Below are positions 33,804 through 61,517 of a stretch of 64,000 nucleotides of DNA, in pieces. The stretch is from NCBI RefSeq assembly GCF_022865125.1, contig NZ_CP094828.1, positions 1,364,001-1,428,000 of the forward strand. The letters run 5' to 3'. Position 1 is the first letter of the stretch; each line of letters opens with the position of its first letter. Origin of the DNA: Acuticoccus sp. I52.16.1 (GTDB lineage Bacteria > Pseudomonadota > Alphaproteobacteria > Rhizobiales > Amorphaceae). The notes beneath the pieces are model-generated. The model had not been told where the DNA came from and searched no databases. It saw only the letters and a list, made by a program, of their open reading frames with translations. A program made the position numbers and the translations under genes.

Positions 33804-35597
33804 TCAGGCGGCCGCGCGGGTGGCCTCGGCGCCGCCACGCCCCCCGCCGATCTGCCGCAGGCGGGCGAGCGCGGGCGGCATCACCGCCTCCTCCGGGATG
33901 GCGCAGAGGCCGGCCCGCGTCATCAGCCGGCCGAGCGACGGGTCCGCCGTCAGCACCGCGAACGGGATCGCCAGGACCAGCCCGGCGATCACCGGCGCGG
34001 CGAGCCAGAGGATGTCCGGCGCCAGGGCTGCGATCAGCACGCCGAGGGCGAGGCCGAAGACCGTCTGCGGCAAGAAGGTGCGCACCGCCTCGCCCCAGGT
34101 GACCGAGCGGACGGCGCGCGGCTGCGCCCCCCAGGCGACCCGCCGGCCGAAGATCAGCGCGAAGGCGAACACCGCGACCGCGAACGCCACCGCCGGCGCC
34201 ATCAGCATCGAGGCCGTCAGCTCGAAGGCGCCGCCGGCCGCCGCCCGCAGCCGCCCGCCGTAGCGGCGCGACTGCACCGGGCTCGCCACCACCGCCACGA
34301 GGCCCATGATCTTCGGCGCGAAGCACATGAAGAGGATCACCCCGACGAGCGCCAGCCCCCACCCGGCCGGCACCGCGGCGCCGTGCACCGCGACCGCGAC
34401 GGCGCCCAGCAGGATGAACATCATCCACGCCGGCGCGCCGAGATACATGACGATGGCGAGCGCCAGCTGCACGCGGCTGATCGCCTTCAGCCCCGGCATG
34501 GCCAGAAGCTGAAAATACTGGAAATTCCCCTGGCACCAGCGCAGCTCGCGGCGGATGAAGTCCGGCAGCGTCGGCGGGTTCTCCTCCCAGCTCTCGCTCT
34601 CTTCCGCGATCACCCGCACGTGGTAGCCGGCGCGGCGCATCAGCACCGCCTCCACCTGATCGTGGCTCATGATGTGCCCGCCCAGCGGCCCGGAGCCGGC
34701 GAGCTTGGGCAACCGGCAATGCGCCGCGAACGGTGCCATCCGGATCAACGCGTTGTGACCCCAGTAAGGCCCGCAATCTCCCGTCCACCAGACCGAGCCG
34801 GCGGTGTAGGCGCGCATCCCGTGACGCATTCCGAACTGGAAGGTGCGCGTGAACATCGAGGTGGAGGGCGTGCCGATCGCCAGTGTCTGAAGGATGCCGA
34901 TGTGCGCGGCGGCCTGCATCGTGCGCACCAGGCGCAGGACGACGCGTGCGGCGAGGTAGCTGTCGGCGTCGAGCGTCAGGAAGAAGTCGTACTCGGCCGC
35001 GTGGGTGGCGCAGAAATCCTCGACGTTGCCGGCCTTGAAGCCGCGATTGTCGCTGCGGCGGCGGTAGTGGATCCGGCCGGCGCGCGCGTTCTCGTGGCGC
35101 CAATGGGCGATCTCGTCCGCCTCCGCGGCGGCGATGGCCGGGTCGTCGGTATCGGACAGGACATGGACGTGGAAATGGTCGGCCTCGCCGGCGGCGTCCA
35201 GCTCGTCGAACATCAGCCTCAGCCGGCCGATCGCCTCCGCCGGCGCCTCGTTGCGCAGCGTCATGACGATGGCGGTGCGGGTGGTGATGGCGCTGCCCGC
35301 CGCCTCGTCGAGCGCCAGCGGGTCGTCCGCGCGCGGACCGCGCACCAGCAGCCACGTGCCGATGACGGCGTTCCAGAACCCGATCGACAGCCACGGCAGC
35401 GTGACCACGTAGGCGCCCCACATCAGCCCCTCCCCGAGCCCGATGCCGTCGCCCGCCAACAGCGCCAGCATCGCCCCGGCGAGCCCGGCGACCGTGACCA
35501 CGTTGAGCAGTGTGAAGACGATCCGCCGCCCCAGCAGGCGCCGTTCGAGATTCACGGGGTGCATTCGCGGAGGGGCGCCGGCCATCATCATCGTCAT
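33804..35597 (-). CDS. opgH: Osmoregulated periplasmic glucan glucosyltransferase OpgH/MdoH
   Basis: 597 residues, the short form seen in alphaproteobacteria (the enterobacterial enzyme is about 850). A GT2 domain contains TLRNE, LSDTDDP, LTLDADS (DxD-type), the GDCGPYWGHNALIR acceptor motif and RRELRWCQGN (QxxRW-type), between two N-terminal and about five C-terminal membrane segments. It polymerises UDP-glucose into beta-linked periplasmic glucans at the inner membrane. The usual partner opgG is not adjacent. The ATG at 35597 lacks a good ribosome site; ATGs at codons 3-5 are alternatives. Confidence 0.9.
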   Translation of the reverse strand: MTMMMAGAPPRMHPVNLERRLLGRRIVFTLLNVVTVAGLAGAMLALLAGDGIGLGEGLMWGAYVVTLPWLSIGFWNAVIGTWLLVRGPRADDPLALDEAAGSAITTRTAIVMTLRNEAPAEAIGRLRLMFDELDAAGEADHFHVHVLSDTDDPAIAAAEADEIAHWRHENARAGRIHYRRRSDNRGFKAGNVEDFCATHAAEYDFFLTLDADSYLAARVVLRLVRTMQAAAHIGILQTLAIGTPSTSMFTRTFQFGMRHGMRAYTAGSVWWTGDCGPYWGHNALIRMAPFAAHCRLPKLAGSGPLGGHIMSHDQVEAVLMRRAGYHVRVIAEESESWEENPPTLPDFIRRELRWCQGNFQYFQLLAMPGLKAISRVQLALAIVMYLGAPAWMMFILLGAVAVAVHGAAVPAGWGLALVGVILFMCFAPKIMGLVAVVASPVQSRRYGGRLRAAAGGAFELTASMLMAPAVAFAVAVFAFALIFGRRVAWGAQPRAVRSVTWGEAVRTFLPQTVFGLALGVLIAALAPDILWLAAPVIAGLVLAIPFAVLTADPSLGRLMTRAGLCAIPEEAVMPPALARLRQIGGGRGGAEATRAAA

Positions 35598-35695
35598 TTC
35601 AGCTACCGTTTCTCGGGATATCGCAGGACGCAGGCCCTGGCGCTGTGCTCGTCGGCACTCGACACGCGCGACACTTCGGATTTAACGACGTCGAT

Positions 35696-36700
35696 ATGGA
35701 AGAACGTCCCGTCACGACCACCGGGGTGCGACAAGCCACGGCACTCTGGTGCGTGGCGGCGGGACGATATGCCTTGCGCCCCGCCCCGCAACCGCTCGCC
35801 GGCGCCGACACCGTCCGCATCGCCGCGCGCTACTCCGCCGTCAGCCGCGGGACCGAGCGGCTCGTCCTCGAAGGGCGTGTGCCGGACAGCGAGGCCGACC
35901 GGATGCGATGCCCCAACCAGGAGGGCGAATTCCCCTTCCCGGTGAAATACGGCTACGCAATGGTCGGCGAAATCGTCGACGGACCGGCCGAACGCCGCGG
36001 CGAACGCGTCTTCCTCCTGCACCCGCATCAGACCCTCGTCACCGTCCCCGCGGCGGCGGCCGTCGCAGTGCCGCCGGCCGTGCCGTCCCGCCGCGCGACC
36101 CTGGCCGCCAATATGGAGACGGCACTCAACGTCGTATGGGACAGCAGGGCCGCACCCGGGGATCATATCCTCGTGATCGGCGCCGGCGTCGTGGGGCTCC
36201 TCGTCGCGCGCATCCTGGCGCGGATCCCCGGCACCACCGTCACCGTGATGGACCGCGACGAGGCCAAACGCGGCGTCGTCTCGGCGATGGGCGCCGCGTT
36301 CGGTGCGGGCGCCCTGCCCGGCGCGCCGGTGGACGTCGCCATCAATGCCAGCGGCAGCGGCGCGGCGCTGACGGATGCGATCGCCGGCGCGGGCCTGGAG
36401 GCGCGCATCGTCGAGGCGTCGTGGGTGGGAGACGGGACGGTCGCCGTCCCGCTCGGCGGCGCCTTCCATTCGCAGCGGCTGACGCTGGTGTCCTCGCAGG
36501 TGGGACGCGTGCCGGCCGAGCGCGCGGCCCGCTGGACCACCACGCGGCGGCTTCAAACCGCACTCGCCCTGCTGGACGACCCCGCACTCGACGTGCTTCT
36601 GACGCACAATATCGCGTTTGGCGATGCACCCGACTGCCTGCCCCGCCTCCTCACCGACGACGGTCCCCTGGCGATCACGCTCGAATACGTACCGGAGTGA
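35696..36700 (+). CDS. Medium-chain (zinc-type) dehydrogenase, first gene of pterin-like cluster
   Basis: 334 residues from the ATG at 35696; a GTG at 35645 would extend it by 17. It has the MDR two-domain plan: a GroES-like N-terminal part with YSAVSRGTERLVLEGRV and FPVKYGYAMVGEIVDG, then a Rossmann domain with VIGAGVVGLLVARI. The GHE zinc motif of classical alcohol dehydrogenases is absent (SRGTE in its place) and there is no four-cysteine structural zinc lobe. It resembles the BchC-like branch. It starts a plus-strand run of four genes spaced 3 bases, 2 bases, and an overlap, with GTP-derived-cofactor enzymes nearby, so it may oxidise or reduce a side chain of the product. Confidence 0.8.
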   Translation: MEERPVTTTGVRQATALWCVAAGRYALRPAPQPLAGADTVRIAARYSAVSRGTERLVLEGRVPDSEADRMRCPNQEGEFPFPVKYGYAMVGEIVDGPAERRGERVFLLHPHQTLVTVPAAAAVAVPPAVPSRRATLAANMETALNVVWDSRAAPGDHILVIGAGVVGLLVARILARIPGTTVTVMDRDEAKRGVVSAMGAAFGAGALPGAPVDVAINASGSGAALTDAIAGAGLEARIVEASWVGDGTVAVPLGGAFHSQRLTLVSSQVGRVPAERAARWTTTRRLQTALALLDDPALDVLLTHNIAFGDAPDCLPRLLTDDGPLAITLEYVPE

Positions 36701-36703
36701 ACC

Positions 36704-37102
36704 ATGTACGCCCTCGAAGTCCGCGACCACATCATGATCGCCCACAGCCTGCCCGGTCCCGCCTTCGGCCCGGCGCAGAACATGCACGGCGCGACCTTCG
36801 TGGTGGACGCGACCTTCTATTCCGAAGTGCTCGGCCCCAACGACATCGTCATCGACATCGGCCTCGCCACCGAGACGCTGAAGGAGGTGCTGGCCCCGCT
36901 GAACTACGCCAACCTCGACGTGCTGCCCGACTTCCAGTCCAAGCGCTCGACCACCGAGGTGCTGTGCCGCTGGGTGTTTGACCGGCTGGCCGCCGCGGCG
37001 CGCGACGGCACGCTGGGCGACGACGGGCGCAACGTGACGCGCATCCGCGTGACCTTGAACGAATCCCACATCGCAAAGGCCTGGTACGAAGCCGCGCTCT
37101 GA
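36704..37102 (+). CDS. 6-pyruvoyl-tetrahydropterin synthase/QueD-family protein with altered active site
   Basis: 132 residues, the family length, with T-fold features DIVIDIGLATETLKEVL and STTEVLCRWVFDRL. In QueD/PTPS enzymes a Cys four residues before an HxH zinc pair and a DHH motif do the chemistry. Here His14 and His28 are kept, but the Cys position is Ala24, the third zinc ligand is Ala30 (MHGAT), and DHH reads Asn67-Tyr68-Ala69. The C-terminal Glu (LNESH) is retained. The frame is intact and embedded in an operon, so this looks like a subfamily with different chemistry and not decay. Substrate unknown, probably a pterin or pyrimidine from GTP. Confidence 0.8.
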   Translation: MYALEVRDHIMIAHSLPGPAFGPAQNMHGATFVVDATFYSEVLGPNDIVIDIGLATETLKEVLAPLNYANLDVLPDFQSKRSTTEVLCRWVFDRLAAAARDGTLGDDGRNVTRIRVTLNESHIAKAWYEAAL

Positions 37103-37104
37103 GG

Positions 37105-38148
37105 ATGCGCATCGCCTTCGCGATCCCAGGTGACATCGACGCCCCGTCCGGCGGCTACCGCTACGACCGGCGGATGCTGGGCGAGCTGCGGGCGCTGGGT
37201 CACGATGTCACCCACCTGGTGCTGGACGGCGCCTTTCCCGTCCCCACGTCCGCCGAGGCCGCCCGCGCGGCGGACGCCTTGGCGGCGGCCGACGCCGACG
37301 TTCTGCTGGTGGACGGTCTCGCCTTCAGCGCCATGCCGGCCGACGCGCTCGGCGGCGTCCAGACCCCCATGGTGGCGCTGATCCACCACCCGCTGGCGCT
37401 GGAGACCGGCCTCTCCGCGGCCGCGGCGGCGCATCATCGCGAGATGGAGACCGCCGCGCTCGGCCAGGCGGCCGGCGTCGTCGTCACCAGCCCGCCGACG
37501 GGGGAGAGCCTGGTCGCGGCCTATGGCGTCCCCGCGGGCCGAATCAGCGTCGCGGTGCCGGGGCTGGACCCCGCCTGGCACCAGGAACGCCGGCCGGTGG
37601 ACCCGCCCCTCATCGTAGCTGTCGCCTCGATAATTGCACGCAAAGGTTACGACGTGCTAATCGCGGCGTTGACCGAGATCAGTGACATGCCGTGGCGCTG
37701 CGCTATCATCGGCTCCAAAGACTGGGACCCGATCCTGGCTTCGTCGCTCGAAACGTCGATCGAACCGCTGGCAGGCCGCATCATGCTGACGGGTGAACTC
37801 GATGAACCGAACATTCGCCGACACTATGCGGACGCGAGCGTCTTCGCGCTCGCGACGCGATACGAGGGGTTCGGAATGGTGTTTCTCGAAGCCATGGCGT
37901 CCGGCCTCCCGGTCGTCACGACGCGCGGCGGCGCAGTGCCGACGGTCGTGCCCCCGGACGCCGGCATCCTCGTCGACGTGGACGACGTGGGCGCCTTCGC
38001 CGCCGGTCTGCGCACCGTGCTGAGCGATCCCGCCTGCGCCGAGCGCCTCTGCGCCGGCGCCCGCCGTGCCGCCCGGTCCGCCGTCCGCTGGGAGGACAGT
38101 GCGGCGGTGATCGCGGCCCGCCTTGCCGAGGTCGTCACCACGCCATGA
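37105..38148 (+). CDS. GT4-family glycosyltransferase
   Basis: 347 residues, starting 2 bases after the PTPS-like gene. The GT-B fold is indicated by an N-terminal PSGGYRYDRRML loop, ALIHHPLALE, the VASIIARKGYDVLIAAL nucleotide-sugar region and the E-x7-E motif in RYEGFGMVFLEAMASGLPVV near residue 255. It transfers a sugar from a nucleotide-sugar donor with retention. Within this operon the acceptor is probably the pterin-like product, by inference; a lipid or polysaccharide acceptor cannot be excluded. Confidence 0.87.
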   Translation: MRIAFAIPGDIDAPSGGYRYDRRMLGELRALGHDVTHLVLDGAFPVPTSAEAARAADALAAADADVLLVDGLAFSAMPADALGGVQTPMVALIHHPLALETGLSAAAAAHHREMETAALGQAAGVVVTSPPTGESLVAAYGVPAGRISVAVPGLDPAWHQERRPVDPPLIVAVASIIARKGYDVLIAALTEISDMPWRCAIIGSKDWDPILASSLETSIEPLAGRIMLTGELDEPNIRRHYADASVFALATRYEGFGMVFLEAMASGLPVVTTRGGAVPTVVPPDAGILVDVDDVGAFAAGLRTVLSDPACAERLCAGARRAARSAVRWEDSAAVIAARLAEVVTTP

Positions 38149-38924
38149 GCTTCAGCTCGAGCTGGCTCGCTCTGCGCAGCGATGCCGACCGCCGCGCCCG
38201 CTCCACCCTGACCACGCGGCTCACCCGCCTGACCGAGCCGATGCGCCGCCCGCTGCGGGTGATCGACATAGGCTCCGGCACCGGCGCGACCGTGCGCGAG
38301 CTCTTCCCGCATATCCGCCCCCCGCAGGACTGGACCCTGGTCGACGCCGATCCGGAGCTGCTTGCGATCGCCAAGGCGCAGCTCGCCGGGCACGGCGGGC
38401 TGCGCATCGCGACGCACGTCGCCGACCTGCGGGTCGAGCCGCTGTGGACCGAACCGCCGGACGTCGTCACCGCCTCCGCCGTGTTCGACATCACCTCCCA
38501 GGAATTCGTCGACCGGCTAGCCAAGGCGCTGGCCGCGCACAAGATCCCCTTCCTGTCGATGCTGACCTACGACGGCCGCCTCGCGATCACGCCCGAGCAC
38601 CCCTTCGACGAGACGGTGATCGAGGCGTTCAACGCCCATCAGCGGGGCGAGAAGTCGTTCGGGCCGGCGCTGGGACCGGCCGCCGCCGACGCGCTGACCA
38701 CGGCGCTCCGCGCGGTCGGCGCCACCGTCGAGGAGGCGGACAGCGCGTGGAGCCTACAGTGGCAGCTCGACCCGGAACTGATGCAGGCGACGCTCGACGG
38801 GTTCGCGGCCGCCGCGACCGAGATCCTGCCCGAGCGCGCGGACGAGGTCGCCGCCTGGCGCCGGGACCGCAAGACCGTGTCGACGATCTTCGTCGGCCAC
38901 CGCGATCACTTCGCGACGTTCTGA
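38145..38924 (+). CDS. Class I SAM-dependent methyltransferase
   Basis: 259 residues; ATG overlaps the glycosyltransferase stop (ATGA). Motif I is VIDIGSGTGATVREL near residue 40, and TLVDADPELL gives the acidic end of beta-2 that binds SAM ribose. The rest does not match a methyltransferase subfamily with a known substrate. Its last 19 bases overlap the end of the RibD-like gene on the other strand. The placement suggests it methylates the product of the cluster. Confidence 0.85.
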   Translation: MSFSSSWLALRSDADRRARSTLTTRLTRLTEPMRRPLRVIDIGSGTGATVRELFPHIRPPQDWTLVDADPELLAIAKAQLAGHGGLRIATHVADLRVEPLWTEPPDVVTASAVFDITSQEFVDRLAKALAAHKIPFLSMLTYDGRLAITPEHPFDETVIEAFNAHQRGEKSFGPALGPAAADALTTALRAVGATVEEADSAWSLQWQLDPELMQATLDGFAAAATEILPERADEVAAWRRDRKTVSTIFVGHRDHFATF

Positions 38925-39619
38925 AGGCCGCCGAGGTCGCAGTCGAAGACGACGTCCCCGCCCGCCAAGGTCGACACCTCGACGGCCGGCCGCAGCGCGC
39001 CATCGAGCCGGTCGATCGGCGGTAGCGCGATGCCGATCGGGCCGGAGCCGATGATCATCGGCGCGACCAGCACGGCGATCCGGTCGATGACACCGGCGGC
39101 GAGAAAGCCGCTGACGGTCGTCGCCCCGCCCTCCACCAGGACCCGCGTCAGGCCCCGCTCGGCGAGCGCATGCAGCACGGCGGCCGGCGCCAGCGGCTCG
39201 CCCTCGGCCGCCGCGCCGGGCGGGATCGTCTCCACCCCGGCCGGATCGTGCGCGTGCGGCGGGCCGAAGACGATGCGCCGGCAACCGTCCTCGCGCAGCA
39301 GCTTCAGCGCCGCGCCGGCCGAGCGCCGCCGGTCGATCAGCACCCGCGCCGGATCCCGTCCCTCGACGTGCCGCACCGTCAGCCGCGGGTCGTCCGCCCG
39401 CGCGGTGCCGGCGCCGATCACCACCGCGTCCACCTCCGCCCGCAGGCGGTGCAGCAACGTGATCGCCTCCGGGCCGTTGATGTAGTGGGAGTGGCCGGTG
39501 GGCGTCGCGATGCGCCCGTCGAGCGACTGGCCGAGCTGGGCCACGACCAGCGGCCGTCCCGCCGCCGCCGCCTCGCGCAGCGCCTCGAGGATGCGCATGC
39601 CGCGGCGCCCCGCCGTCAC
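38906..39619 (-). CDS. Stand-alone RibD C-terminal reductase-domain protein
   Basis: 237 residues from a GTG overlapping the cytochrome b561 stop (GTGA); an ATG at 39598 would give 230. The reductase half of RibD is complete: VVAQLGQSLDGRIAT, GAGTARADDPRLTVR, ARVLIDRRR and LVEGGATTVSGFL. There is no deaminase domain with its zinc HAE/PCxxC motifs. In bacteria the reductase normally follows deamination within one protein; separate reductases acting on the still-aminated GTP product are known from fungi and archaea. The neighbouring GTP cyclohydrolase II supports a reaction on its product. Confidence 0.87.
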   Translation of the reverse strand: MTAGRRGMRILEALREAAAAGRPLVVAQLGQSLDGRIATPTGHSHYINGPEAITLLHRLRAEVDAVVIGAGTARADDPRLTVRHVEGRDPARVLIDRRRSAGAALKLLREDGCRRIVFGPPHAHDPAGVETIPPGAAAEGEPLAPAAVLHALAERGLTRVLVEGGATTVSGFLAAGVIDRIAVLVAPMIIGSGPIGIALPPIDRLDGALRPAVEVSTLAGGDVVFDCDLGGLQNVAK

Positions 39620-40161
39620 CGGCCGGGCCACATGCGTTGAAACACCCCGTCGCGCTTGACGAGGAGATGGAACAGCGCGCCAGCGATGTGCAGCGCGGCC
39701 ACGGCGATCAAGACGAACGCCGCCGTCTCGTGCCAGGCGGCGACGAGCTTGTAGGTCTCCTTGTCGGGTGCGGTGAGGGCCGGGAGGGAGAACCAGTCGA
39801 ACACCTGGCGGGCCGGGAACAGTGACACCGCCGTCCACCCCAGCAGCGGCAACACGACGAGGAGCGCGTAGAGCGCCCAGTGCGTCGCCGCGGCGACGAC
39901 GCGCTGGAGCGGGTGCAACGGCGGATCGATCGCCGGAGCACCCGCGAGGAGACGGTTGACCAATCGCAAAGTCGTGAACCACAAGATCGTGAAGCCGACG
40001 AGCTTGTGGCTGGAATAGAGCCAGTTGGTCAGTGCATCCCAGATGCCGAGGTCGCCGCCGCGGTAGGTCATGAGGAAACCGGTCGCCAGCATGAACAGCA
40101 CCGCCAAGACGGTAAGCCAATGAAACCCCTTGGCGATCGCCGAATACGAGCCTTGCCTCAT
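39616..40161 (-). CDS. Cytochrome b561 family protein
   Basis: 181 residues from the ATG at 40161, preceded by AGGACG; the frame is open 13 codons further. Four membrane segments carry the four heme histidines expected of bacterial diheme b561: KGFHWLT, SSHKLVG, ATHWALY and AALHIAGAL. These proteins pass electrons between quinol and superoxide or other acceptors across the inner membrane. Translational overlap with the RibD-like gene puts it in the pterin cluster, where it could serve a redox step, though this is speculative. Confidence 0.88.
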   Translation of the reverse strand: MRQGSYSAIAKGFHWLTVLAVLFMLATGFLMTYRGGDLGIWDALTNWLYSSHKLVGFTILWFTTLRLVNRLLAGAPAIDPPLHPLQRVVAAATHWALYALLVVLPLLGWTAVSLFPARQVFDWFSLPALTAPDKETYKLVAAWHETAAFVLIAVAALHIAGALFHLLVKRDGVFQRMWPGR

Positions 40162-40353
40162 CGCTTCGTCCTGCCTCTCGCTCGTGCGGCGGTTGGTCAC
40201 CGGACTGGTCGAACCAACGTGTCAGCCCCAAACTAATACAACATCGAGGCAACCGGAGTGCACGATGTCGATGCCGCGTGCAGTGTTGCCGAGCACACTT
40301 AAGCCGGCCGACGACGGGCATAGCGTGTCGTCGGCCAACGGAGAGTGGAACGA

Positions 40354-41055
40354 ATGTCTCTGTCGCAAGCCCTGTCGTTCGCGGCGCTCAACCTCGTCGC
40401 CGTCACCCCGGTGGAAATCCGCCGTCAGGTCGCCGTGTGCGTGGCGTTCGAGCCGCTCGGCGTGTCGATGGGTGACGCGCCGCATCTCGCGATCCTCTAC
40501 AGCAAGCGCAATTGGCTGGCGGCGCAGGATCTCGGTGCGGCGGTGGAGGACGAGTTCGCCGGCGCCAAGTCGGTGCTGACACGGATCCACTCGGAGTGCC
40601 TGCTCGGCGACGCGTTCGGCTCCTCGATGTGCGACTGCGGCAGCCAGATGCGCACCGCGATGGAGGCGATGGCCGAGCAGCGCGAGGGGATCTTCATCTA
40701 CCTGCGCCAGGAGGGCCGCGGCATCGGCATGCGCGCCAAGCTCGACTGCCTGGCGTTGCAGTACGGCTTCGTGGACGGCAAGCGCACCCAGCGGCGCCAC
40801 ACCTCCGACGAGGCCAACCTCGCCCTAGGCCACGACATCGACGAACGCTCGTTCGACATCGCCGGCAAGCTGATCCGGGCGCTCGACATCGCCTCGGTCC
40901 GGCTCGTCACCGGCAACCCACGCAAGATGGCCGACCTCGAGGCCGCGGGCGTCACCATCGCCTCGACGGTGGACCTTTGGGACGGCTGCATGTCGACCCG
41001 CGCGGCCGAGGAACTGGCCGAGAAGGTGGCCCGCGGCTACACCTACGAGCGCTGA
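40354..41055 (+). CDS. GTP cyclohydrolase II, divergent type
   Basis: 233 residues from the ATG at 40354, with GGAGAG eight bases upstream; a GTG at 40345 is less well placed. Zinc ligands Cys82, Cys93 and Cys95 keep the canonical spacing, and YLRQEGRGIGM, EANLALG and DERSF are present. The usual TNNP reads TGNP and there is an insert around GKRTQRRHTSDE. The enzyme opens GTP to 2,5-diamino-6-ribosylamino-pyrimidinone phosphate and formate. There is no DHBP-synthase fusion. Context with a lone RibD reductase and a PTPS homologue argues for a pathway separate from riboflavin; housekeeping ribA should be elsewhere. Confidence 0.9.
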   Translation: MSLSQALSFAALNLVAVTPVEIRRQVAVCVAFEPLGVSMGDAPHLAILYSKRNWLAAQDLGAAVEDEFAGAKSVLTRIHSECLLGDAFGSSMCDCGSQMRTAMEAMAEQREGIFIYLRQEGRGIGMRAKLDCLALQYGFVDGKRTQRRHTSDEANLALGHDIDERSFDIAGKLIRALDIASVRLVTGNPRKMADLEAAGVTIASTVDLWDGCMSTRAAEELAEKVARGYTYER

Positions 41056-41111: not shown

Positions 41112-42431
41112 TCAGGTCCGGTCGGTTTCCGGGATGATGCCGCGCGGGGCGAAGCGCAGCACCACCAGCAGCAGGACGCCCATCACGATGTAGCGCATGT
41201 GCGAGGCGTTCTGCAGGAGGTGCTGGCGGATCGACGAGCCGTCGCCCAGCCCGCGCGTCGCCCAGTCGATTAGGAAGGTGCCGACCGGCTCGGCCTCCAC
41301 CCACGCGAACCAGATGATGAACGCGCCCACCGTGGCGCCCCAGTTGTTGCCCGCCCCGCCGACGATCACCATCACCCAGATCAGGAAGGTGAAGCGCAGC
41401 GGCTGGTAGGCCGTCGGCACGAACTGCCCGTCGAGCGTGACGAGCATCGCCCCCGCCACGCCGATCAGCCCGGAACCGACGACGAACACCAGGAGGTGCA
41501 GCCGCTTGACGTCCTTGCCCATGGCGTTGGCGGCGGTCTCGTTGTCGCGCACGGCGCGCATGGTGCGCCCCCAGGGCGAGGCGAGCGCCCGTTCGGCCAG
41601 CCACAGGATGAGCCCCAGGACCACCACGAAGAGCCCGATATAGCCGAGCTTGACCACCATCGAGGAGAGCGGGATCGCCGGCATGCCGAGCGTGTCGACG
41701 AGGGACTGGAACCACTCGGTGGTCCGCATGTCGACCTCGTAGGGCACCGGGCGCGGCAGGCCGACGACGTTCTTCACTCCGCGCGCCAGCCAGTCCTCGT
41801 TCATCAGGACGGCGATGATGATCTCCGAGACGCCGAGCGTCGCGATGGCGAGGTAGTCCGCCCGCAGCCCCAGCGCGATCTTGCCGATGACGAAGGCCGC
41901 GGCCGCCGCCAGCAGACCGCCAACGACCCAGGCCAGGAGCACCGGCAGCCCCATGCCGCCGAGGTAGCCTTCCATCGCCGGGTTGACGCCCTCGACCGCC
42001 TCGACCGAGGGGCCGAGCACCTCCATCCCGGCCCAGAGGCCGGCCACGACGAGCACGACCGTCAGCAGCGCTTTGGCGATGCGCCCGCTCACCAGCCTGC
42101 GGGCCGCCACCGTGACGGCTGCCGTCGCCAGCAGCACGAAGAGACCGAAGAGGACGCCGGGCCCGCCGACCTCCCACGCCGCGTCCACCGTCGGCACCGC
42201 GACGATCACCACCGCGACGCCGCCCAGCGCCGTGAACCCCATGACGCCGAAGTTGACGAGCCCGGCGTAACCCCACTGCACGTTCACGCCGAGCGCCATG
42301 ATCGCCGAGACGAGGCACATGTTCATGATCGTCAGCGCGACCGTCCAGCTCTGGACGAAGCCGGTCACCGCCACGAGGACGAAGAAGATCGCGAACGGCA
42401 GCACCGTGCGCAGCGGAGAATTCTTCGTCAT
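41112..42431 (-). CDS. livM: Branched-chain amino-acid ABC transporter permease LivM
   Basis: 439 residues from the ATG at 42431; AGGAGG lies five bases upstream and the ATG overlaps the livH stop. About ten membrane segments and the LivM marks GYAGLVNFGVMGFTALGG, GLRADYLAIATLGVSEII and WGRTMRAVRDNETAANAMGKDV are visible. It is longer than most LivM proteins because of an inserted hydrophobic stretch around residues 80-160. It is the last gene of the liv operon. Confidence 0.93.
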   Translation of the reverse strand: MTKNSPLRTVLPFAIFFVLVAVTGFVQSWTVALTIMNMCLVSAIMALGVNVQWGYAGLVNFGVMGFTALGGVAVVIVAVPTVDAAWEVGGPGVLFGLFVLLATAAVTVAARRLVSGRIAKALLTVVLVVAGLWAGMEVLGPSVEAVEGVNPAMEGYLGGMGLPVLLAWVVGGLLAAAAAFVIGKIALGLRADYLAIATLGVSEIIIAVLMNEDWLARGVKNVVGLPRPVPYEVDMRTTEWFQSLVDTLGMPAIPLSSMVVKLGYIGLFVVVLGLILWLAERALASPWGRTMRAVRDNETAANAMGKDVKRLHLLVFVVGSGLIGVAGAMLVTLDGQFVPTAYQPLRFTFLIWVMVIVGGAGNNWGATVGAFIIWFAWVEAEPVGTFLIDWATRGLGDGSSIRQHLLQNASHMRYIVMGVLLLVVLRFAPRGIIPETDRT

Positions 42432-43441
42432 GCGGGCCTCCTGTTGAAGAGGCCTTGTGGCCGTATGAGCAGCGTGATCACCAGGATCACGAACGCAACC
42501 GCGAATTTGTACTCGGTGCCCAGGAGCTGGACGAGGCCGTCCGGCATCCAACCGTCGGGCAGGAGGTGGTCGAGAAAACGCTTGTAGGCGTAGGTGGTCA
42601 GCACCTCGGCGAAGGCGATGACGTAGCCGCCGACGATGGCGCCGATCGGCGAGCCGAGCCCGCCGACGATCGCCGCCGCGAAGATCGGCAGCAACAGCTC
42701 CTGAAAGACGAACGGCTTGTAGCTCTTGTCGAGCCCGTAGAGGACGCCGGCGACGACGGCGAGCGTCCCCGACAGCATCCACGCGATCATCACCACGCGC
42801 CCGGCGTCGATGCCGGAGAGGGTCGCCAGGTCCTCGTTGTCGGCGTAGGCGCGCATGGACTTGCCGGTGCGCGTCTTCTGCAGGAACAGGAAGAGGGCGA
42901 CCACGCAGATCAGCGCCGTCACCAGGGTGACGACCTGGGTGGTCTTGAGCGCCAGCCCCTCGTCGAGCCCGGTCGCCTCCTTGAAGTCGCGGACGTTGAA
43001 GACGAAGCGGGCGCCGTCGGTGAAGATCTGGTCGTTCGGGCCGATGATGAAGCGGATGAGACCGGCCGTCACGAACATCACGCCGATGGAGGCGATGATG
43101 AAGATCACCTGATCCGACCGCTTTTCGCGATAATAGCTGTAGACCACCTTGTCGGTGACGAGGACGAGGCCGACGGTGAAGAGAATGCCGACCGGGAGCG
43201 CCAGCAGCGCGGTGGGGAGCGGGTCGATCGACACGCCCCAGGACTGCAGCCCCCAGGTGACGAAGATCGTCACCATGGCGCCGATCGACATCGTCTCGCC
43301 GTGCGCGAAGTTGGAGAACCTGAGGACCGCGAAGATCAAGGTGACGCCGAGCGCGCCGAGCGCCAGCTGCGAGCCGTAGGCCGCGCCGGGCACGAGGGCG
43401 AAGTTGGCGATCAGGACGACCGCGTTGAGGAACCCTTCCAC
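42428..43441 (-). CDS. livH: Branched-chain amino-acid ABC transporter permease LivH
   Basis: 337 residues from a GTG at 43441 with CGGAGG upstream, one base after the livF stop. LivH features include LGALGVTLIFAVLRFSNFAHGETMSIGA, GKSMRAYADNEDLATLSGIDAGRV and VGGLGSPIGAIVGGYVIA. It forms the heterodimeric channel with LivM in the inner membrane. Confidence 0.94.
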   Translation of the reverse strand: MEGFLNAVVLIANFALVPGAAYGSQLALGALGVTLIFAVLRFSNFAHGETMSIGAMVTIFVTWGLQSWGVSIDPLPTALLALPVGILFTVGLVLVTDKVVYSYYREKRSDQVIFIIASIGVMFVTAGLIRFIIGPNDQIFTDGARFVFNVRDFKEATGLDEGLALKTTQVVTLVTALICVVALFLFLQKTRTGKSMRAYADNEDLATLSGIDAGRVVMIAWMLSGTLAVVAGVLYGLDKSYKPFVFQELLLPIFAAAIVGGLGSPIGAIVGGYVIAFAEVLTTYAYKRFLDHLLPDGWMPDGLVQLLGTEYKFAVAFVILVITLLIRPQGLFNRRPA

Positions 43442-43442
43442 G

Positions 43443-44147
43443 TCAGCCTCCGAGGAAGGTGCGGCGCACGTCCGGGTCGGCGAGCAGGGCCTCTCCGGTG
43501 TCGGTGTGCGCGTTGGTGCCATGTTGCAGGACGTAGCCGCGCGTCGCGATCTCGAGCGCCTGCTTGGCGTTCTGCTCGACCATCAGGACGGCGATGCCGG
43601 TCCTGGCGACGTCGATGATGCGGTCGAACAGCTCGTCCATCACGATGGGAGAGACGCCCGCGGTCGGCTCGTCCAGCATCAGGAGCGAAGGCTTGGTCAT
43701 CAGTGCGCGGCCGACCGCGACCTGCTGGCGCTGCCCGCCCGACAATTCGCCCGCCGGCTGCCGGCGCTTCTCGGCCAGCACCGGGAAGAGGCCGTACACT
43801 TCGTCCATGGTCGCCGTGTAGTCGTCGCGGCGGATGAAGGCGCCCATCTCGAGGTTCTCTTCCACCGTCATGGACGGGAAGACGTTGCGGACCTGCGGCA
43901 CGAAGCTCATGCCGTTCTTGACGCGGTCGGTCGGCTTCATGGCGGTGAGGTCGGCACCGTCGAGGGAGATGGCGCCCGCCCGCAGGCGCAGCATGCCGAA
44001 GATCGCCTTCATGGCGGTGGACTTGCCCGCGCCGTTGGGGCCGACGATCACCGCGATCTCGCCGCGGTCGGCCTCCACCGTGCAGCCCTGGAGGATGTCC
44101 TCCGCGCCGTAGCCGCCGCGCATGTCGCGGGCGATGAGAAAGCTCAT
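43443..44147 (-). CDS. livF: Branched-chain amino-acid ABC transporter ATPase LivF
   Basis: 234 residues from the ATG at 44147. Walker A GPNGAGKST, signature LSGGQRQQVAVGRALM, Walker B LLMLDEPTAGVSP and the H-loop replaced by VEQNAKQAL, as is normal in LivF. It hydrolyses ATP with LivG to power uptake. A small membrane-protein gene lies between it and livG. Confidence 0.94.
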   Translation of the reverse strand: MSFLIARDMRGGYGAEDILQGCTVEADRGEIAVIVGPNGAGKSTAMKAIFGMLRLRAGAISLDGADLTAMKPTDRVKNGMSFVPQVRNVFPSMTVEENLEMGAFIRRDDYTATMDEVYGLFPVLAEKRRQPAGELSGGQRQQVAVGRALMTKPSLLMLDEPTAGVSPIVMDELFDRIIDVARTGIAVLMVEQNAKQALEIATRGYVLQHGTNAHTDTGEALLADPDVRRTFLGG

Positions 44148-44169
44148 CGGCTCATGCTCTCCAAATCGT

Positions 44170-44496
44170 TCATCGCGCCTCGTCCGGCACCCCGGCCAGG
44201 GTCGCCAGCGGCGGCACATAGGGAAGTCGCGTCAGGACGCGGCTGGTGCGGTTCACCTCGGTGATGGCGCGCGTCACGCACTCGGTGCTCGGCGCCGATC
44301 CCCAGCGCCGGCAGACCCATTCGGGCGAATCGAACGGCCGCAGAAAGTTCGCCCCGCGCACGATGGCGACGAACCCGTCCGGGATCCCCGGCCGCGGCGC
44401 GATCACGAAGAGGCGAAAGCCGAGCACCGGCGTCAGCGCCGCGGCGATCAGGAGGAAGATCACCGCGATCATCGCATATCGCATGGGGCGAGACAT
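44170..44496 (-). CDS. Small membrane-anchored protein within the liv operon
   Basis: 108 residues with GGAGGGGG nine bases before the ATG. One hydrophobic segment spans about residues 8-28; the remainder is probably periplasmic and contains two cysteines (CRRWG, ECV) that could pair. I recognise no family. Location between livG and livF with 18- and 22-base gaps means it is co-transcribed with the transporter, where it might be an accessory factor. Confidence 0.7.
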   Translation of the reverse strand: MSRPMRYAMIAVIFLLIAAALTPVLGFRLFVIAPRPGIPDGFVAIVRGANFLRPFDSPEWVCRRWGSAPSTECVTRAITEVNRTSRVLTRLPYVPPLATLAGVPDEAR

Positions 44497-44514
44497 GGCG
44501 GTGCACCCCCTCCG

Positions 44515-45449
<935 letters not shown>

Positions 45450-45453
<4 letters not shown>

Positions 45454-46637
45454 CGATACTGCACCGTCTCGATGGCGCCGTCCTTCACCTCGATCTCGCG
45501 GAACGAGCCGCCGGACTCGCCACCGTTGATCAGCTCGACGGACGAGGCGCCGACGTAGTCGATGTCGCCGCCGCCGGCGATGATCTCGAGCGCCTTGCCC
45601 AGTTCGCCCGGCAGGATCTGCTCGCCGGGGGCGTTGGCCAGCTCCATGATGGCGCTCTTGTAGGTGGCGGGGTCGGTCGAGCCGGTCTTCTGCATCGCGA
45701 GCATCATCAGCGCGGCGCCGTCATAGGCCTCGGGCGCGTAGACGCCGGTCGCATTGCCGGCCTCCTCGGAGAGCTTGGCGAAGATCTGCGAGCCTTCCGA
45801 GTCCGAGCCCGGCAGCACGCCGTAGGAGCCGTCGAGATCGTCGCCGATGGCCTCGACGAGCGCCTCGCCGACCATGCCGTCGGGCAGGAAGAAGGTGTCG
45901 AACGCGCCGGAGTCGAGCGAGGCCTGGATGATGCCGCGGCCGCCCTGGTCGAGGTAGCCGGCGACGATCAGGATGTCGCCGCCTGCGGAGGCGAGCGCGG
46001 CGACTTCGGCCGAGTAGTCGCCCTTGCCGTCCTCGTGCGGGGCGTTGATCGTGATCTCGATGCCCTTCTCCTCGGCGGCCGCGGCGATCGAGTCGGCCAG
46101 ACCCTTGCCGTAGTCGTTGTTGGTGAAGGTCAGCGCGGCGGAGGAGACGCCCTTGTCGGTCAGGATGTCGGCGATGATGACGCCCTGGCGCGCGTCGGAC
46201 GGCGCCGTGCGGAAGAAGAGCCCGTCATCCTCGACCGAGGTCAGCGCCGGCGAAGTGGCCGACGGGGAGATCATCACGATGCCGTTGGGGATGGCGACGT
46301 TCTGCAGGACCGCACCGGTCACGCCCGAGCACATCGCGCCGACGATGCCGTTGACGCCGTCGGAGGTGACGAGGCGCTCGCCGGCGGTGGTGGCGGCGCC
46401 GGCGTCGATGCAGGTGTCGTCGCCGCGCACGGAGGTGACGGAGCCGCCGTCCATGAACTTACCGGAGTCGTTGACCTCGGCGATGGCGAGCTCGGCGCCC
46501 AGCGCCATGGCGGGCGACAGGCTTTCCAGCGGACCGGTGAAGCCGAGCAGGATGCCGATCTTGGCGTCGTCGGCGAGGACGGGCGCGGCGGTGACGAGTG
46601 CGGCGGCGCTGACCAGCGCCATGAGGGTGGTTTTCAT
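45450..46637 (-). CDS. Branched-chain amino-acid type ABC substrate-binding protein (LivK family)
   Basis: 395 residues; GAGGAG lies five bases before the ATG at 46637. A signal peptide of 22 residues ends VLA. The mature protein has the periplasmic-binding type 1 fold with IGILLGFTGPLESLSPAM, DDTCIDAGAATTAGERLV and FTNNDYGKG. An extra cysteine pair (TCIDA and AMCSG) may form a disulfide. Ligands of this family include branched amino acids, amides, urea and aromatic acids; the ligand here is undetermined. It is the first gene of the operon. Confidence 0.92.
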
Positions 46638-47165
46638 CTTTGGCTCCTCAGGCGAGCATTTTCGCTTGGCATGAAGCCTGACCATAGGCCTTGCCGCTTC
46701 GCAAGATGGTGCCGCCCCCTCTCGCGCCATCGCGCCGTCACGCGGCCGTCACGCCCCGCCCACGGCGCCGGTGTCACCCGGACGCCGCACTGCACGTCCC
46801 TGTGAAGCGAAATCCACCGCTTGTGATGACCGCCGCCCTGGCACGCCCCCGACCTCGATGCTACCTGCCCGTCGACCACGACGGCCCGCCGCCCGCGCGG
46901 CTCATGAGGACATTTTACGATTAACCAAAGAAACAGTGCCGCCTACGCCTGTTTTGCTTTACGTGATATTCACCACCGGACGAGGCCGATCGTGTATATG
47001 GGTCGGGAGATCTGTCGCGGGGCGTCGCAACCTCTTAGAGTTTGCGCGCGAATGTCCCACCCGCGCTGGATCATGTGTCTCATCCACTCCGCATGAAATT
47101 CAGTCAGCGTGGCCTGAAACCAATCGGTGACGGTGCCCGTTGTTGTGGCGCATAGGAAAAGAACG
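46638..47165. other. Intergenic region upstream of livK and of a small ORF
   Basis: 528 bases. The part from about 46905 to 46985 is distinctly AT-rich (CATTTTACGATTAACCAAAG, TTTTGCTTTACGTGATATTC) and probably contains the livK promoter on the minus strand. No protein gene or structured RNA was recognised in the rest. Confidence 0.45.
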
Positions 47166-60713: not shown

Positions 60714-61517
60714 TCAGCGCGGGCGCGTTCCCAAAAGAATCGCCAGATCCGCGCGGGTCACGTCGCGCAGGAGGTCGATAAAGGCGTCGGCCTGATGCTC
60801 GGCAAGGCGTCGTCCGAGGGCGGCGTTGCCTACCCGCGCGTCACCCACGACCCCGTCCGGCGACAGGTCCTGCGCCTTCCACGCGAAGGGCTGTCTCCCG
60901 TGCGCGACGAGCTGGCGAAACTCGGCGGAATAGCGCGACTGGGCACTGGGGAAGGCCCGCGCGGCCTCCTCCCGCACCAGCTCGGGGCGGAAATGGCGGA
61001 TCAGCGCGGTCTCCAGCGTGCCGCCGTGAATGCCGATCGCCCGCTCCTCCTCGCCGATCAGGTCCGCGTCGCCGAAGCGCATCCAGTTGGCGTGGACGGC
61101 GAGCATGTCGAACCGGACGCGCAGCTCACGGGTGACGACATCGAGGAGCGCGATGTTGCCGCCGTGCGAATTGGCGAAGACGATCCGTCGCACCCCGGCC
61201 CGCGCGATCGACTCGCCGATCTCGATCCACGCGCGGATCGCCGTTTCCCAGGTCAGCGTGATGGTGCCGCGATAGTCGATGTGCTCGTTGGACTTGCCGA
61301 CCGTCTGCACCGGCAGGAAGGTGGCCGGGATGTCGGCCGGGAGCCGTTCCAGCACGGTCTTCACCATACCCTCGGCGATGAGGGAGTCGGTCCCGATGGG
61401 CAGGTGCGGCCCGTGCTGCTCGATCGCCGCGGTCGGCACCACCGCCACCCAGTCGTCCGGATGGTCGGGGATGTCGTGCGTGGTCATCTCCACCCAGTGC
61501 GGGCGCGGCGAAGTCAT
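60714..61517 (-). CDS. Creatininase-family amidohydrolase
   Basis: 267 residues; GGAGACG precedes the ATG. Metal ligands are in order: Glu33, His35 and Asp44 in AAIEQHGPHLPIGTD, His in ANSHGGN and Glu in HGGTLETAL. Family members hydrolyse creatinine or open rings in riboflavin/F420 precursor degradation (ArfB-type formamide hydrolases) and mycofactocin-type peptides. It lies upstream of the dpp-type operon on the same strand, 132 bases away. Confidence 0.9.
   Translation of the reverse strand: MTSPRPHWVEMTTHDIPDHPDDWVAVVPTAAIEQHGPHLPIGTDSLIAEGMVKTVLERLPADIPATFLPVQTVGKSNEHIDYRGTITLTWETAIRAWIEIGESIARAGVRRIVFANSHGGNIALLDVVTRELRVRFDMLAVHANWMRFGDADLIGEEERAIGIHGGTLETALIRHFRPELVREEAARAFPSAQSRYSAEFRQLVAHGRQPFAWKAQDLSPDGVVGDARVGNAALGRRLAEHQADAFIDLLRDVTRADLAILLGTRPR

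Follow-up and report, generated by a model that had tools for sequence, protein, structure and literature searches.

The window analyzed here, a stretch of 64,000 nucleotides from Acuticoccus sp. I52.16.1 (G000:C1:1364001-1428000; size of genome G000 5.53 Mb), carries a gene cluster around a T-fold protein of the PTPS-IV family, accompanied by a divergent GTP cyclohydrolase II (GCHII), a stand-alone RibD-type reductase and genes linked to the cell envelope. The reading that we favor, with the scales standing about level, is a dedicated pathway leading from GTP to a 2-amino-4-oxo-pyrimidine or pterin that carries a sugar and probably a methyl group and is delivered to the cell envelope. The conserved pathway is real and was partly noticed earlier. 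The family with the FGPAQ signature has been named PTPS-IV, and a node of 561 sequences (AGeNNT cluster-node 62) with PF00925 and PF01872 neighbors has been reported (PMC5445326, 2017). With this, three of the seven families had already been linked in print and the idea is partly known; because both the name and the association have been published, as far as the consulted parts of that paper go, a preliminary description of the locus went too far in calling the pathway unrecognised. New here are the Gln-for-Lys exchange in the reductase site, the zinc-less MDR dehydrogenase, the envelope genes, the finding that coenzyme F420 is an unlikely product, and a clade that combines a Leu-type GCHII with the absence of GTP cyclohydrolase I. 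A literature search covering Creative Commons (CC) papers found no product for this pathway, which is kept in about 7% of the sampled Pseudomonadota (27/398).

The core of the cluster is a plus-strand operon in which an MDR dehydrogenase without zinc ligands (open reading frame (ORF) 35645-36700, with ATG 35696 as the likelier start), the PTPS-IV protein (36704-37102; PF01242, 78.7 bits), a GT4 glycosyltransferase (37105-38148; PF13692/PF00534) and a class I S-adenosylmethionine-dependent methyltransferase (38145-38924; PF13649) follow each other with intergenic gaps of 3, 2 and -4 bases. The methyltransferase gene overlaps tail to tail, by 19 bases, with the minus-strand gene of a RibD_C reductase that stands alone and has no deaminase domain (38906-39598; PF01872, 126 bits). 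A cytochrome b561 (39616-40200, minus strand; PF01292) comes next and is separated by 144 bases from the plus-strand gene of the divergent GCHII (40345-41055; PF00925, 123 bits). On the opposite flank, a cluster-specific paralogue of the membrane glucosyltransferase OpgH/MdoH (33804-35597, minus strand; two NCBIfam MdoH models above cut-off) diverges from the MDR ORF across a gap of 47 bases. Gene order, overlaps and domain matches bear out the preliminary description, in which the genes of the cluster were rightly described. It counted six families where seven genes are present, and the conserved OpgH-like glucosyltransferase was omitted, so that its gene set was incomplete and the envelope-linked genes were overlooked.

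Conservation of the neighborhood was followed in two samples. The first comprises 100 loci of at least 12 kb with a PTPS match, stand-alone PTPS included, in which neighbors within 10.5 kb were counted; the second derives from a survey of 398 evenly drawn Pseudomonadota genomes (PTPS threshold E <= 1e-20) and consists of 25 of the 26 non-self loci, each at most 19.6 kb long, with the window and L100 (3.4 kb) excluded. PTPS-IV occurs in 20 of the 213 genera surveyed. All 25 survey loci have an MDR and a GT4 gene near PTPS-IV, 23 a methyltransferase and 21 a RibD_C reductase; less frequent are CDP-alcohol phosphatidyltransferase (12), a flippase-like protein (11), GCHII (10), b561 and an FkbM methyltransferase (seven each), creatininase (six) and a sulfatase-annotated protein (five). 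The corresponding values among the 100 loci are 97 for MDR, 92 each for GT4 and methyltransferase, 74 for the reductase and 43 for b561. According to the preliminary description, co-occurrence confined to close relatives would speak against its idea; the gene-neighborhood check was run, and the families were instead found together well beyond close relatives, in alpha-, beta- and gammaproteobacteria and on actinobacterial plasmids. Plasmids of rhizobia, Methylosinus (pOB3b1 of M. trichosporium OB3b), Thiodictyon, Streptomyces and Microbacterium show the core genes in the same order; on Rhodobacterales plasmids, GT4 is located outside the operon. Xanthobacter autotrophicus (L059) is a further carrier of the cluster. 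Among the best 80 of 548 confirmed loci, a selection that leans to close relatives, the closest PTPS relatives stem from Acuticoccus yangtzensis (L002, 83% identity) and a metagenome-assembled genome (MAG) labeled 'Rhodobacteraceae' (L003, 72%), followed by an alphaproteobacterial MAG (L004, 71%) and A. kalidii (L005, 71%). Of the 27 PTPS-IV genomes, 12 have a GCHII gene no more than 5 kb from PTPS, and a thirteenth has one at 15 kb. Since only about 0.15 such cases within 5 kb would be expected (67 copies in about 123 Mb), an excess of roughly 80-fold, this proximity is not due to chance. GCHII and b561 are nevertheless optional neighbors, and the gene set does not hold as one fixed unit: all seven genes are found within 10.5 kb in 20 of the 100 loci and in four of the survey loci.

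The reductase gives a hint at the type of substrate. A profile of 22 cluster reductases was nearest to 6p8c and 2azn, which are 2,5-diamino-6-ribosylamino-pyrimidinone reductases. At the site of Bacillus subtilis RibG Lys151, 62 of 64 cluster reductases have Gln, one has His and one was unread (this set is restricted to loci with MDR, PTPS, GT4, methyltransferase and RibD all within 8 kb); among the aligned references, fused RibD has Lys and the diamino reductases 2azn and 6p8c have Asn. It is said to have been proposed by Chen in 2009 that Lys151 selects the deaminated substrate. The window reductase has neither the deaminase domain nor the Lys of riboflavin RibD and, as a stand-alone RibD_C protein without Lys at this position, conforms to a 2,5-diamino-pyrimidinone reductase. 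The exchange of Lys for Gln points to an undeaminated 2-amino pyrimidine as substrate and hence to a product that would be of the pterin rather than the lumazine type. A similarity exists to the start of archaeal riboflavin synthesis (ArfB/ArfC-type; 2azn, 6p8c), where reduction precedes deamination, as would be predicted here from the sequence, and a creatininase-type deformylase is also present in some clusters. The cluster differs from that system in that PTPS-IV, MDR, GT4 and methyltransferase follow and that the key site is occupied by Gln instead of Asn.

The GCHII of the window stays below the cut-offs of two NCBIfam RibA models (145.9 vs. 148 bits and 133.7 vs. 205.85 bits). It keeps the zinc-binding Cys residues, Asp126, Arg128, Thr149 and Lys154 and carries Leu at the position of Escherichia coli Tyr105. 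Leu at this site characterizes a short divergent form present in the window, L002, L003 and L005 and is, among the aligned GCHII sequences, confined to this clade, whereas the other aligned proteobacterial cluster enzymes retain Tyr105 and mostly represent the long RibA form. In the GCHII of a Streptomyces plasmid cluster (L085) the site is occupied by Met. The same residue reportedly occurs in SCO6655 of Streptomyces coelicolor, which we take to be altered at Tyr105 as well; Spoonamore is said to have found in 2006 that SCO6655 makes the formyl intermediate FAPy and acquires GCHII activity when Tyr is restored. By analogy with this enzyme, altered at the same site, the Leu-type GCHII is predicted to form FAPy and to stop there. 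The plasmid cluster L085 shares the MDR-PTPS-GT4-methyltransferase order with the window and adds a creatininase, located beside the Met-type GCHII; the S. coelicolor genes SCO6650-SCO6655 resemble the window through a PTPS protein that is similar over its full length (E 2.7e-39). Differences from the S. coelicolor/Streptomyces system consist in Leu instead of Met, the lack of an adjoining creatininase, and the presence of an OpgH-like enzyme and b561, where that system has a CDP-alcohol transferase.

If FAPy is the first product, removal of its formyl group would follow. In archaea, a creatininase-family deformylase (ArfB) serves this step. A creatininase-family deformylase has also been reported, in the parts of the study consulted, for riboflavin synthesis in Sinorhizobium meliloti (PMC9478397). 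Creatininase genes are present within 10.5 kb in 16 of the 100 loci. In the window, a creatininase-family amidohydrolase is encoded about 20 kb away from the cluster (60768-61490, minus strand; PF02633, 227 bits; these positions delimit the domain match, and the ORF is longer). It shares 41-44% identity with the creatininases of six PTPS-IV clusters and 29-33% with those of eleven others and is a candidate deformylase whose membership in the cluster is uncertain.

Outside the cluster, a long RibA-type GCHII that keeps the zinc Cys residues, Tyr105 and Arg128 is encoded at about 220 kb of G000:C1 (L149, 8963-10015, plus strand), next to FolD- and PurU-like genes and a molybdenum-hydroxylase-like set (all named from sequence). 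A further GCHII-type domain resides in a frame of 436 amino acids at about 3156 kb of G000:C1 (L151); its zinc cysteines are missing in the alignment, and it is perhaps a RibBA protein with a dead GCHII half. These copies bear on the idea that the cluster makes a flavin or a riboflavin precursor. GCHII and RibD_C are indeed riboflavin enzyme families, and as L151 has no zinc cysteines, G000 does not possess a surplus of canonical GCHII copies. On the other hand, a fused RibD encoded elsewhere in the genome scores above cut-off (270.8 bits) and keeps Lys, the GCHII at 220 kb is complete, and the cluster reductase has no deaminase domain and Gln in place of Lys. A flavin product is accordingly very unlikely, and the earlier statement that the compound is not riboflavin stands insofar as plain riboflavin is improbable on account of the fused RibD, the second complete GCHII and the Lys-to-Gln exchange.

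The PTPS-IV protein itself contains the motif FGPAQNMHGA, and FGP[AG]Q..HGA was found in all 64 cluster sequences. In each of them HGA replaces the HGH of zinc-binding homologues; the window protein lacks the Cys of the site as well. The FGPAQ signature and the PF00925/PF01872 neighbors both place the window protein in PTPS-IV, although public records label such proteins 6-carboxytetrahydropterin synthase; it is the sole PTPS-family protein of G000. QueD (PTPS-I) was considered and rejected: the CxxxHGH motif is absent and the score of 40.9 bits falls far below the cut-off of 89.25, so that queuosine can be ruled out, in agreement with the preliminary description. One close solved relative was identified, SCO6650 of S. 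coelicolor (3d7j; E 2.7e-39, full length). SCO6650 and SCO6655 are said to have been the subject of an earlier biochemical study, and the structure of SCO6650 was reportedly described by Spoonamore in 2008 as devoid of zinc and catalytic triad, the protein having no PTPS activity.

The published PTPS-IV neighborhood (PMC5445326) has the FGPAQ signature and nearby GCHII (PF00925) and RibD_C (PF01872) in common with the cluster; in the consulted parts of the paper PF00925 is described as GTP cyclohydrolase I (FolE2), and no MDR, GT4, methyltransferase, OpgH-like, CDP-alcohol or creatininase partners are named. Elsewhere, PTPS-IV has been said, as an unpublished remark in the portion consulted, to take part in archaeal F420 synthesis (PMC5041015). 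A function of the cluster in coenzyme F420 synthesis could also draw on sub-threshold FO synthase matches in 11 of the 27 PTPS-IV genomes, among them two adjoining pieces in G200 (208 and 106 bits) that possibly represent a single gene, disrupted or misread. However, none of the 27 genomes has an FO synthase above the TIGR03551 cut-off of 374.1 bits, compared with 3 of 14 controls, and G000 yielded no match. For this reason F420 is an extremely improbable product for the organisms to which the comparison applies, namely the PTPS-IV genomes of the Pseudomonadota survey, as opposed to archaea or actinobacteria. Settling the pathway would reveal the true role of PTPS-IV.

The distribution of folate genes raises a different possibility for the clade of the window. 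GTP cyclohydrolase I (PF01227) was not found in the genomes of G000, A. yangtzensis (L002) and A. kalidii (L005), i.e., in any of the three Acuticoccus-type genomes tested, and FolE2 (PF02649) was not found in G000, the sole genome of this type searched for it. Of the 26 remaining PTPS-IV genomes, 25 possess PF01227, and the exception, G341, has FolE2. The clade without GTP cyclohydrolase I coincides with the one bearing the Leu-type GCHII, a correlation within one clade. G000 has retained adjoining FolK and FolP genes (at about C1:4902870-4904090) and has FolD and PurU (named from sequence) at C1:211-231 kb. The Leu-GCHII, reductase, MDR and PTPS-IV of Acuticoccus might thus have replaced GTP cyclohydrolase I and supply the dihydropterin for folate, in keeping with PTPS-IV being the only PTPS-family protein of G000 and with a bypass by GCHII plus TrpF that Adams is said to have described for Chlamydia in 2014. 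We consider this unlikely: the loss would also be explained by import of folate, by a TrpF route or by a cyclohydrolase of an as yet unrecognized kind, the search for FolE2 covered G000 alone, the L003 genome stood outside the folate-gene searches, and a scan of 2.05 of the 5.53 Mb of G000, made with a distant query, gave no FolB. Moreover, because the cluster coexists with FolE elsewhere, folate supply cannot be its general role. The loss in Acuticoccus raises the question whether GCHII chemistry can feed folate.

Among the remaining operon proteins, the MDR enzyme is marked by its metal site. In 25 of 25 sequences the zinc ligands are absent, with SRG-x-E and G-Y invariant in place of what we take to be the usual Cys and GHE motifs. 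Solved structures matched by the MDR profile include alcohol, iditol, butanediol and galactitol-phosphate dehydrogenases, with polyol and secondary-alcohol enzymes among them, and its best NCBIfam match, BchC, is weak (37.9 bits; cut-off 291.25). A fold search with a model of the protein (pLDDT 87) ranked RspB and threonine dehydrogenases at the top; the matches were general MDRs and included TarJ as well as idonate and sorbitol dehydrogenases. The same procedure applied to the methyltransferase (pLDDT 95.3) yielded generic class I enzymes alone, and searches of solved structures found no close relative. GT4 and methyltransferase are encoded in a single ORF in L140 and L142 (649 and 644 codons), a sign of linked function. 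UDP-glucose:tetrahydrobiopterin glucosyltransferase (5ze7) is likewise a GT4-type enzyme and acts on a pterin, but it is only a distant match to the window GT4 profile (E 5e-12, compared with E 1.3e-41 for the best GT4 match), and a pterin-specific GT4 was rejected as an assignment.

The envelope link rests on genes that flank the operon. Ten non-self proteins match the OpgH-like paralogue at 46-53% identity and eight of these are encoded beside PTPS-IV, whereas other full-length OpgH matches are 32-39% alike and mostly lie beside OpgG. Among the 100 loci, 57 have an OpgH-like gene at most 10.5 kb from PTPS, as do 8 of the 25 survey loci. CDP-alcohol phosphatidyltransferase is found in 25 of the 100 loci, often together with a flippase-like protein; it is never present along with the OpgH-like gene (0/100), and 18 loci have neither. 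The window enzyme and OpgH (MdoH) of periplasmic glucans belong to a common family; the former is, however, a separate paralogue, OpgG is absent from its vicinity, the nearest copy in G000 being 1.4 Mb away, and the genome has a canonical OpgH beside OpgG at a distance of 2 Mb. Synthesis of periplasmic glucans proper was therefore rejected as the role of the window gene. OpgG does occur within 10.5 kb of PTPS in six of the survey loci, which stem from related genomes of two beta-/gammaproteobacterial families, where about 0.2 would be expected (42 copies in about 123 Mb), and a glucan-exporter-type ABC protein is present in 8 of the 100 loci and none of the 25 survey loci (one was scored, at 832.4 bits with an NCBIfam cut-off of 733). 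We read the envelope genes, whether OpgH-like or CDP-alcohol/flippase, as part of the cluster, and the product would be bound for the membrane or periplasm.

OpgH-like and GT4 genes alone would suggest glycan synthesis, GCHII and b561 are optional, and the catalytic site of PTPS is missing, all of which could mean that two unrelated sets merely adjoin: an operon for envelope glycans next to a side branch of riboflavin synthesis, with PTPS-IV as a non-catalytic binding protein. Such an arrangement appears rather improbable since the reductase stays with PTPS in most survey loci of several classes, Gln is common to almost all cluster reductases and GCHII adjacency far exceeds expectation. In addition, the distance matrices of the families correlate at 0.71-0.79 over the 64 loci (mirror-tree), a value that carries little weight as a species-tree control is absent.

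For the dedicated pathway, we infer every reaction, the opening of GTP by the divergent GCHII included, as well as the order of steps and the product from gene content, conservation, residue states and the presence or absence of genes at the genome level, which were observed directly. GCHII would open GTP, the Leu form probably halting at FAPy, which a creatininase-type amidase would deformylate. The stand-alone reductase would then act on the undeaminated pyrimidine and reduce its ribosylamino group at C1' to ribitylamino, and the zinc-less MDR may oxidize a secondary alcohol of the side chain to a ketone at C2'; together, the two steps would be equivalent to an Amadori rearrangement. The zinc-less T-fold PTPS-IV could bind the resulting compound and close or rearrange its ring, after which GT4 would attach a sugar and the methyltransferase would methylate the compound. 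A product derived from GTP by glycosylation and methylation, as already proposed in the preliminary description, is plausible. Carriage to the membrane or periplasm would fall to the OpgH-like enzyme or, elsewhere, to CDP-alcohol phosphatidyltransferase and flippase, and b561 may exchange electrons with the product there. An envelope-bound pterin or pyrimidine glycoside, if true, would amount to a novel cofactor or to a novel way of decorating lipids or glucans. A bolder version, which strikes us as quite unlikely, is a second bacterial pterin route without GTP cyclohydrolase I that mostly provides an envelope glycoside redox cofactor served by b561 and on which the Acuticoccus clade would have come to depend for folate, with GTP cyclohydrolase I lost.

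Several observations weigh against the dedicated pathway. GCHII is found within 15 kb of PTPS in just 13 of the 27 genomes, all of which hold at least one GCHII, and nearby RibD_C, methyltransferase and b561 genes are missing from 4, 2 and 18 of the 25 survey loci, respectively. Taken alone, the window reductase reaches 102.9 bits with the fused-RibD model and 99.7 bits with the archaeal diamino-reductase model TIGR01508 (cut-off 186.45), both below cut-off. Outside the clade of the window, a change of Tyr105 was seen among the aligned GCHII sequences in one cluster alone (L085), so that FAPy chemistry is not general. The GT4 profile is much nearer to Tll1590 and D-inositol-3-phosphate glycosyltransferase than to the tetrahydrobiopterin enzyme, and the mutual exclusion of OpgH-like and CDP-alcohol genes follows taxonomy to a large extent. 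Finally, three of four opened Streptomyces plasmid PTPS-IV regions (six such plasmids matched) carry no usual partner.

These stand-alone PTPS-IV genes of Streptomyces plasmids (L087, L088, L091), which perhaps have a different role, are located beside genes for an MBL hydrolase, a sigma factor and a BTAD regulator. Among the less common neighbors of the cluster, the 'sulfatase'-annotated protein of L083 and two recurrent families, represented by L077 6074-7165 (minus strand) and L035 14718-17138 (plus strand) and present in 18 and 14 loci, respectively, gave no Pfam or NCBIfam match at E 1e-5. In the window, a LIV-type ABC transporter set named from sequence, with two permeases, two ATPases and a binding protein, is encoded on the minus strand at 41112-46730, just downstream of GCHII.

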